The translations under genes and the position numbers were made by a program. Below, piece by piece: positions 3,359-21,831 of a stretch of 21,831 nucleotides of DNA. Each line of letters starts with the position of its first letter. Position 1 is the first letter of the stretch. The notes under the pieces are model-generated. The model was not told where the DNA came from. It worked only from the letters and a program-made list of their open reading frames with translations, and searched no databases. The stretch is from positions 1 through 21,831 of the IMG/VR virus record IMGVR_UViG_3300005253_000074. The stretch is one strand, 5' to 3'. This DNA is from a virus.

Positions 3359-3604
3359 CTAGTTTCGCGCCAATACTCCAGATGGCCTGGGGGTTGGATC
3401 ACCCAGAGCGGCCTGGATGGAGCCTACAACCGTTGGGTCAGACAAGCAGTCAAGTTCAGCGGCTATCTCCGCCCTGCTCCGCCCGCTTGAGCTTTGCGCT
3501 CGTATGGTGGCAAGTAGTTCTGATGGGACCTCGGCGTCAAATAGCGTGCCGTGTTCCCGGTTAAGTCTCGACAAGAGCGCTAATCGCTCATCTATAGTTT
3601 TCAT
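3359..3604 (-). CDS. Hypothetical 81-aa protein
   Basis: No family is recognised. The protein is acidic and helical in the N-terminal half, with SRAEIAAELDCLSDPTVVGSIQAAL in the middle resembling a small HTH-like helix pair, and ends in a proline-rich tail. The ATG at 3604 has TAGGAG 8 nt upstream. Its leader is nearly the same as that of the 126-aa gene at 4633. It lies just downstream of the tmRNA-like RNA and upstream of the 3326-3347 hairpin. Confidence 0.6.
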   Translation of the reverse strand: MKTIDERLALLSRLNREHGTLFDAEVPSELLATIRAQSSSGRSRAEIAAELDCLSDPTVVGSIQAALGDPTPRPSGVLARN

Positions 3605-3646: not shown

Positions 3647-3765
3647 TGGAAGCGCGGGGGATCGAACCCCGGTCCAGAGCGAGGCTGTTGTTGGCCTTTT
3701 GGCGCTTTTGCTGTGGGCCTTTACGCCTAACGGGCCACCTCGTCTGTCGAAACCATTTCGCTCCC
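3647..3765 (-). ncRNA. Compact tmRNA-like RNA (tRNA-like domain, P2 and one pseudoknot only)
   Basis: RNA numbering runs from 3765 (1) to 3647 (119). The acceptor stem is GGGAGCG (1-7) with CGCUUCC (112-118), including a G3-U pair, the alanine identity element. The 5' segment GGUUUCGACAG (12-22) and the 3' segment UCUGGAC plus a T arm (95-111, loop UUCGAUC) match tmRNA ends. P2 pairs 20-28 with 82-91 (9 bp, one bulged C). A PK1-like pseudoknot forms from 30-33/47-50 and 39-43/61-65. Normal tmRNAs are about 350 nt. Here PK2-PK4 are absent, a tag-like ANNSLAL frame begins at 71, and no frame has a stop after the pseudoknot. CCA is not encoded. It lies 7 nt after the stop of the 90-aa gene and is probably processed from the operon transcript. 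Confidence 0.8.
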
Positions 3766-3772
3766 ATAAGTG

Positions 3773-4045
3773 TTACCCTTCGAGAAGCGGAGACCATATT
3801 GGATTTCCAGCTTCTACATACTCCGCGAACTTCAGTACGTTGCTTGACAATTCCGGCTCGGCGGCAGCAAACCAATCCTCGTTGCACAGTCGTCTTATTC
3901 CGGCTATCCGACCTTCGAGTGACCCCAGTTGCTGGCTCTTGCTACCTTTCATTCGAGAGAAGCGGTTCGGGTCGGTGGTCTTGGACTTCGTAATGTCTGA
4001 TATGTGGGCGGAGATTAGTTGCTTGCTTATCAGTACGCTTGGCAT
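3773..4045 (-). CDS. Hypothetical 90-aa protein
   Basis: No family is recognised. The ATG at 4045 has GGAG 6 nt upstream and overlaps the preceding stop as TAATG, so I prefer it to a GTG four codons earlier. The protein has a basic first half (many Lys, Arg and Ser) and a more acidic, aromatic second half. Its stop lies 7 nt before the first base of the tmRNA-like RNA. Confidence 0.6.
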   Translation of the reverse strand: MPSVLISKQLISAHISDITKSKTTDPNRFSRMKGSKSQQLGSLEGRIAGIRRLCNEDWFAAAEPELSSNVLKFAEYVEAGNPIWSPLLEG

Positions 4046-4224
4046 TATATGCTCCACTTAAGTAATCTCTTGCAAATGCCGTACAAGGCCCTGTACGTAG
4101 GTCCGAAGGTTCCGGTACTGGCGGTTGGCTTGTAAACATCCCAATAAGTCTTATATCTTAATAGAGTGCGCGCTCCTCCTCCAATTACTACGGTTGGACG
4201 ACTTCCTGCGTTTTCGTGTTTCAT
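4045..4224 (-). CDS. Hypothetical 59-aa basic protein
   Basis: No family is recognised. The ATG at 4224 has AGGAG 8 nt upstream. The product is rich in Arg, Lys, Tyr and Gly and ends with a basic amphipathic helix (YGICKRLLKW). Its TAA overlaps the next ATG (TAATG). Small size and the lack of a detectable domain limit any functional call, but spacing and ribosome site favour a real gene. Confidence 0.55.
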   Translation of the reverse strand: MKHENAGSRPTVVIGGGARTLLRYKTYWDVYKPTASTGTFGPTYRALYGICKRLLKWSI

Positions 4225-20665: not shown

Positions 20666-21831
20666 ATGACATTATGGAGTAGAGTTATGCAGGGACTTAG
20701 AGCATTTAGAGAAGAATTTGTTTCGGGAAGCGTATTTTCGGAGGATGAGTTTGCAGACCCGGAAGCCCGCAAGGTGCGATATGATGTTAATTGGGCTGCA
20801 TATGAAAATACTATTTACAGAAGTATCCATTCCTGGGCGCGCACTTACAAGACGAGGTATGCCCTCTATGAATACACCAGGAGCATTTACGGCCCCGCCC
20901 ATCGTCTCGGAGAATTTTGGAAGTCTCATCTTTGGGGTGGTCAGCTTGATGCTGAGGCGGGAGAGACTGGCGCCCTTCCTATTGTTACTGGCAATAAGGC
21001 TCTCCGCCCTGCCGTGGCCGACATTTGGAGATGGAGCAATTGGGCCACGAAAAAAGATACCGTATCCCTTCATGGTGCTATTTATGGGGATGTTATTCTG
21101 AGAGTTATTGACGATATTGCTCTTGGCAAGGTATATGTTGAGAGTGTCTTTCCAGGATTGGTAACGAGTCTCACCAAGGACCCTTTTGGGAATATCAAGG
21201 GCTACACCATCGAAGAAAATCGGCAATCTCCAAACAATAACAAGATGGTCGTATACAAGGAAACTGCGGAAAGAGATGGGCAGTCTGTTGTCTTTAAGAC
21301 CTATATGAACGACACTCCGTATCCCTGGAATGGAAAAGCATCGGTGTGGAGAGAGCCCTACGGGTTTGTGCCAATGGTCCACATTCAGCATAACGATGTT
21401 GGGTTGGAGTGGGGATGGTCAGAACTTCACCCCTCGCGTTCCAAGATGCATGAACTGGATGACCTCGCTTCACTGCTCTCGGATCAAATCAGGAAGTCAG
21501 TAAATGCAAAGTGGTTCTTTGCCGGGATTAAAGGCTCATCTCCAAATGTGACTATGGGAAGCGTACCAAAGACTACAGCCAGACCCGAACCTGGGAGAGA
21601 GGAGGAGATGGCCATTTACTCCCCGGACCCAAACTCAAAGGCTTTCCCCTTGGTTGCGCCTGTCGATATAGAGGGCGCCACCTTACACATATCTGAAATC
21701 CTCAAAGACCTGGAGAGAGATTATCCTGAGTTAAAGTTTGATGCCCTACGATCTCTTGGGGATATTTCGGGTCGGGCTCTGAGAATTGCACGTCAACCCG
21801 CAGAGACAAAAGTTCTCCAGAGGCGGGCAAA
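20666..21831 (+). CDS. Portal protein, N-terminal part (continues at 1-425)
   Basis: The ATG lies 3 nt after the terminase stop. The frame is open to the end of the window (388 complete codons) and, through the 121-bp repeat, continues in frame to the stop at 423-425, for a total of 489 aa. YGDVILRV (140-147) is a core strand of siphophage portals. The long helical stretch GWSELHPSRSKMHELDDLASLLSDQIRKS corresponds to the region before the portal stem, and the final acidic helices form the crown. Residue counts and position after the terminase agree with this call. In the window numbering the gene is split only because the circle is cut inside it. Confidence 0.85.
   Translation, partial: MTLWSRVMQGLRAFREEFVSGSVFSEDEFADPEARKVRYDVNWAAYENTIYRSIHSWARTYKTRYALYEYTRSIYGPAHRLGEFWKSHLWGGQLDAEAGETGALPIVTGNKALRPAVADIWRWSNWATKKDTVSLHGAIYGDVILRVIDDIALGKVYVESVFPGLVTSLTKDPFGNIKGYTIEENRQSPNNNKMVVYKETAERDGQSVVFKTYMNDTPYPWNGKASVWREPYGFVPMVHIQHNDVGLEWGWSELHPSRSKMHELDDLASLLSDQIRKSVNAKWFFAGIKGSSPNVTMGSVPKTTARPEPGREEEMAIYSPDPNSKAFPLVAPVDIEGATLHISEILKDLERDYPELKFDALRSLGDISGRALRIARQPAETKVLQRRA
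21711..21831. repeat. Terminal direct repeat, right copy
   Basis: This stretch is identical to bases 1-121; see the left copy. It lies inside the portal coding sequence and should be counted once. Confidence 0.95.

Follow-up and report, generated by a model that had tools for sequence, protein, structure and literature searches.

The tmRNA-like RNA and its place in the phage genome

The window analysed here is the whole stretch of 21,831 nucleotides that makes up the IMG/VR record IMGVR_UViG_3300005253_000074. An identical repeat of 121 bp stands at its two ends (positions 1-121 and 21711-21831), which marks the record as complete: a circular (or circularly permuted) genome 21,710 bp long. 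The circular 21.7-kb genome belongs to a tailed phage and encodes major head, tape-measure, terminase and portal proteins. A 119-nt RNA resembling tmRNA lies between two ORFs, all on one strand. The coordinates given for this RNA in the initial annotation proved exact, on the minus strand. The features of the locus are as follows, in 5' to 3' order along the minus strand:

3773..4057, minus: upstream ORF of 94 aa, part of the same leftward gene block and without a known family; it ends 7 nt ahead of the RNA
3647..3765, minus: tmRNA-like RNA of 119 nt, with its 5' end at 3765 and A73 at 3647 (RF00023 match and manual reading)
3759..3765, minus: acceptor 5' strand GGGAGCG, with G3 pairing with U70; 7/7 pairs with 3648-3654
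3746..3754, minus: tmRNA 5' signature GGUUUCGAC (direct reading)
3738..3746, minus: P2 5' strand CAGACGAGG, pairing with 3675-3684 with one bulged C
3685..3737, minus: body of 53 nt between the P2 strands, a PK1-like or nested stem and an A-rich linker, no tag stop codon
3675..3684, minus: P2 3' strand CCUCGCUCUG (manual reading and fold)
3655..3671, minus: T arm CGGGG-UUCGAUC-CCCCG
3648..3654, minus: acceptor 3' strand CGCUUCC, then A73 at 3647 (pairing count)
3359..3604, minus: downstream ORF of 81 aa, part of the same leftward gene block and without a known family; it starts 42 nt past the RNA

The tRNA-like domain, by which membership among tmRNAs is judged, is complete. The acceptor stem GGGAGCG/CGCUUCC has all seven pairs, G3-U70 included, and is accompanied by A73, the GGUUYCGAC signature and a T arm with 5/5 stem pairs. 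P2 (CAGACGAGG/CCUCGCUCUG) forms 9 bp with one bulged C. CCA is not encoded, A73 being followed by CUU. The Infernal comparison proposed there gave 55.6 bits against the Rfam tmRNA model RF00023 (gathering score 47; E = 3e-23 for one genome), and the alignment runs end to end over model positions 1-374. Since this score lies above the cutoff, the RNA is more than a chance resemblance; the family described below is the stronger answer to that question. The RNA was called neither by ARAGORN nor by a default cmscan against Rfam. The folding energy of the minus strand from 3765 to 3647 was -50.3 kcal/mol (z = -2.9 against shuffles).

The genes of tmRNAs are known to serve as attachment sites for other phages. 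In the Gordonia phages Bock (L208) and Ohgeesy (L209), 3' ends resembling those of tmRNAs adjoin a tyrosine integrase and are probably attachment sites. That the 119-nt RNA is likewise a piece of a host tmRNA gene through which the phage integrates is exceedingly improbable: its 5' and 3' halves are both present and mutually paired, and the phage record yielded no match to a tyrosine integrase or serine recombinase.

Body of the RNA and comparison with known tmRNAs

A tag reading frame with a resume codon and a stop, as expected of a tmRNA, was absent from the 119-nt RNA. As the initial annotation had stated, all frames past the P2 body are free of stop codons, and one frame is open across the entire RNA. 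Its statement that PK2-PK4 are missing holds as well, since merely 53 nt separate the P2 strands. One frame past the P2 body (3647-3700, minus strand) reads ANNSLAL, which is reminiscent of a tag and has no stop codon; it was rejected as a tag because it lacks the stop and overlaps a P2 strand.

The initial annotation had also described a body with one pseudoknot. The sequence admits a PK1-like fold, yet in this RNA alone that fold is no better than in shuffled sequence (p about 0.11), and a free pseudoknot search gave p values of 0.06-0.57, i.e., weak single-sequence support. When six short forms were considered jointly, a common PK1-like arrangement reached a Fisher p of 1e-4, with test boundaries that were set after the sequences had been seen. 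The minimum-energy fold is nested and contains no pseudoknot, as is inevitable with a folding program that cannot predict them. PK1 in the 119-nt RNA is unproven. From its complete tRNA-like domain and missing tag, identification of the locus as a stripped-down, tagless tmRNA-like RNA with intact charging determinants is supported.

The RNA shares with the bacterial one-piece tmRNA (ssrA, RF00023) the G3-U70 acceptor, GGUUUCGAC, P2, the T arm and the order of parts; it differs in being a third as long and in lacking both a tag frame with a stop and the space for PK2-PK4. The complete, two-piece, permuted tmRNAs of Melnitz and other marine phages (PMC9004378) are likewise phage-borne, whereas the 119-nt RNA is one-piece, direct-order and tagless. 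A permuted two-piece tmRNA was therefore rejected for this locus, its parts being in direct order and the score against RF04321 only 16 bits. Tagless tmRNAs of mitochondria (RF02544) and of Mallomonadaceae plastids (about 65 bp), both noted in PMC11915505, also have no tag reading frame; however, they are organellar, and the mitochondrial gene is usually permuted, unlike the RNA described here. According to PMC4131195 and PMC11915505, which cite Mao et al. 2009, the tmRNA of mycobacteriophage DS6A amounts to hardly more than a tRNA-like domain. As far as that description goes, it shares with the 119-nt RNA a phage origin, a tRNA-like domain and the lack of a coding sequence, although the latter extends further, with a 9-bp P2 enclosing a body of 53 nt. 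The form is not without precedent, given DS6A and both organellar groups.

Tagless forms in other viruses

We searched viral contigs and cellular genomes for relatives by using a gapped pattern that joins the 5' and 3' signatures of tmRNA across a gap too small for a normal tmRNA. TTCGAC and the T loop are fixed in it, and the acceptor, P2 and position 70 may vary. The scans were anchored on motifs, and the counts are samples and lower bounds. Among the matches listed, the acceptor and P2 pairing test was passed by 112 of 128 viral but only 2 of 121 cellular pattern matches. Checking by hand raised the number of forms in cellular assemblies among the matches listed to about six, of which two on actinobacterial contigs (L247 and L266) have phage terminase or head(-maturation) genes beside them on the contig. 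The tagless forms of about 79 nt are strongly virus-enriched. At least 78 non-redundant virus-borne forms of this size, each a tRNA-like domain with a short P2 hairpin, were obtained in addition to several larger ones. For comparison, of the 97,179 sequences in the 2025 tmRNA database, 79 are from phages and only 9 are direct-order entries without a coding sequence (PMC11915505). We found no description of a wider viral class of tagless tmRNAs in the open-access literature; with DS6A as the one published phage precedent in the sources cited above, its breadth is the surprise.

The small RNAs were recognised by RF00023, and ARAGORN called none at the 27 loci tested. The 79-nt model R1 matched the 119-nt RNA with 28 bits in its 3' half only, as expected from the longer body of the latter. 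Weaker matches to the 79-nt model were seen in Microbacterium phage Dismas (L207, 34 bits) and Vibrio phage D239 (L212, 38 bits); these may be further variants of the small form.

The G-U wobble pair of the acceptor stem is an alanine identity element recognised by alanyl-tRNA synthetase. All 78 small forms have A73 and 77 of them have G3-U70; the one without it is a deletion variant whose relative is intact. The invariance of G3-U70 while neighbouring pairs change is the pattern expected from recognition by alanyl-tRNA synthetase. Judged by this pattern, the alanine identity of the viral tagless forms is under visible selection. P2 is also maintained: its strands form 6.2 of 7 pairs on average, compared with 2.9 after strands were swapped between RNAs. 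In an alignment of 29 small forms of equal length, 95.5% of the cells pair, and changes on both sides numbered 133 versus 41 in shuffles. The compensatory changes that the initial annotation proposed to look for are thus strong in P2 across the family; the search for relatives of the phage itself recovered none with the RNA.

The closest analogue of the 119-nt RNA among the matches listed was a 122-nt form (L009) in an unrelated phage, with which the present phage has no detectable protein in common. About eight further forms of 100-140 nt were present among the same matches. Seven of about 105-130 nt (L020, L021, L027, L185, L203, L188 and L026, the last with its acceptor register corrected by hand) have acceptors with G3-U70. 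In contrast to the tagless RNAs, phage tmRNAs of 135-140 nt (L333, L346, L351 and L196/L201), which have too little room for PK2-PK4, appear on hand reading to keep a short tag and stop, ANTAGLTE-stop and ANTVGMFK-stop. A BLAST search of the 119-nt RNA against cultured phages returned partial matches only, mainly to the T arm. The loci in CcrSC, RpAliso and phiScoe55 were read and were not convincingly tmRNA-like.

Intermediate sizes, including the 135-140-nt forms with an apparent tag, together with the missing tag and pseudoknots, could be taken to mean that the 119-nt RNA is what remains of a full phage tmRNA or captured host gene in decay. We consider this reading, the main alternative in the initial annotation, highly unlikely: every tRNA-like helix of the RNA is intact, and its relatives form a large virus-borne family that shows compensatory change and little breakage. 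A functional tmRNA-derived RNA is well supported by these pairing patterns.

The genomic context of the small forms was varied. Among 51 small RNAs with a same-strand ORF close by downstream, that ORF encoded a major head protein in 12, and among 45 with an upstream ORF it encoded a head maturation protease in 8. Twelve small RNAs lie 32-298 nt upstream of a capsid gene on the same strand, a position kept even though the capsid products have diverged to as little as 44% identity. In phiPsal1, a cultured phage of Pontimonas, an unannotated 79-nt form (L205, 5569-5647) lies upstream of the major capsid gene, a placement that recurs in a dozen metagenomic phages. This arrangement, and the position of the 119-nt RNA between two same-strand ORFs, would suit an RNA-processing or mRNA-stabilising element, in which RNase P and 3' nucleases cut the tRNA-like fold and separate the messages of a phage operon. 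Such a role is unlikely, because it leaves unexplained why the alanine-specific G3-U70 is kept while other acceptor pairs change, and because many relatives sit in tRNA arrays or beside other genes. In the cultured Streptomyces phages LuckySocke and Karimac, for example, the small form is unannotated and located inside a tRNA array.

Possible function at the host ribosome

The initial annotation had offered a decoy, a tagless rescuer or a regulator of host trans-translation as possible functions, which are not distinguishable by sequence alone. The first of these has a precedent: the DS6A form, as reported in PMC4131195 and PMC11915505, inhibits tmRNA in E. coli, perhaps through titration of SmpB, and this inhibition did not require charging. 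We give about an even chance to the reading that the 119-nt RNA is a phage-encoded tagless tmRNA derivative acting as an alanine-accepting decoy of host trans-translation. The record contains no match to SmpB and no second tmRNA match, such as the full-length tmRNA split elsewhere on the genome that the initial annotation had named as evidence against its reading; the RNA would thus have to act on host partners. SmpB was also not found in 24 records tested.

As a decoy, the RNA would be transcribed within the leftward gene block, as its position suggests, trimmed by tRNA-processing enzymes of the host and provided with CCA. Charging with alanine by the host alanyl-tRNA synthetase is strongly supported as a prediction, since G3-U70 and A73 are kept here and family-wide. 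Host SmpB and EF-Tu would bind the conserved tRNA-like domain, and the charged RNA would enter, or compete for, ribosomes stalled on broken mRNA. Since it offers no reading frame for a tag, it could tie up SmpB and the stalled ribosomes, and fewer unfinished proteins would then be tagged by the host during infection. A lowering of host trans-translation is what we infer here by analogy with DS6A, to the extent that the cited accounts describe it.

Some observations do not fit readily. The 124-kb phage record IMGVR_UViG_3300025362_000004 contains a full-length tmRNA together with a 79-nt tagless form (L365, L366), which is not readily explained by a pure anti-tmRNA role. In addition, a terminase search recovered only distant relatives of the present phage, none with the RNA signature; the absence of this signature from the closest (L153, 49% identity, 9.3 kb) speaks against the decoy.

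Inhibition by the DS6A form is described in the cited sources as independent of charging, yet charging identity is conserved in the viral family, which suggests that more than simple SmpB titration is involved. It is possible, and we propose it tentatively, that the tagless tRNA-like domains constitute a widespread virus-specific RNA class that needs its alanine charge and acts at the stalled ribosome itself, by poisoning or by tagless rescue, instead of merely soaking up SmpB; the 119-nt RNA would be a larger variant with a PK1-like body. If it acted by tagless rescue, the charged RNA together with SmpB would accept the stuck peptide, another factor or peptidyl-tRNA hydrolysis would free the ribosome, and an untagged protein would be released, which would aid the phage while leaving the host pathway unblocked. 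The conserved alanine identity suggests that peptidyl transfer matters, but we know of no release step for a tagless tmRNA-like RNA. Tagless mitochondrial tmRNAs are retained alongside SmpB and are thought to help with incomplete mRNAs (PMC11915505), whereas the related DS6A form is inhibitory as far as the cited accounts go; on balance we regard rescue of this kind as doubtful.

The decoy reading, if extended to the family, suggests that phages use stripped-down tmRNA-like RNAs to interfere with host ribosome rescue. The breadth of the viral forms and their visibly selected alanine identity make it possible to test whether viruses generally interfere with ribosome rescue, and the cultured phages of Streptomyces and Pontimonas could serve as laboratory systems for this.
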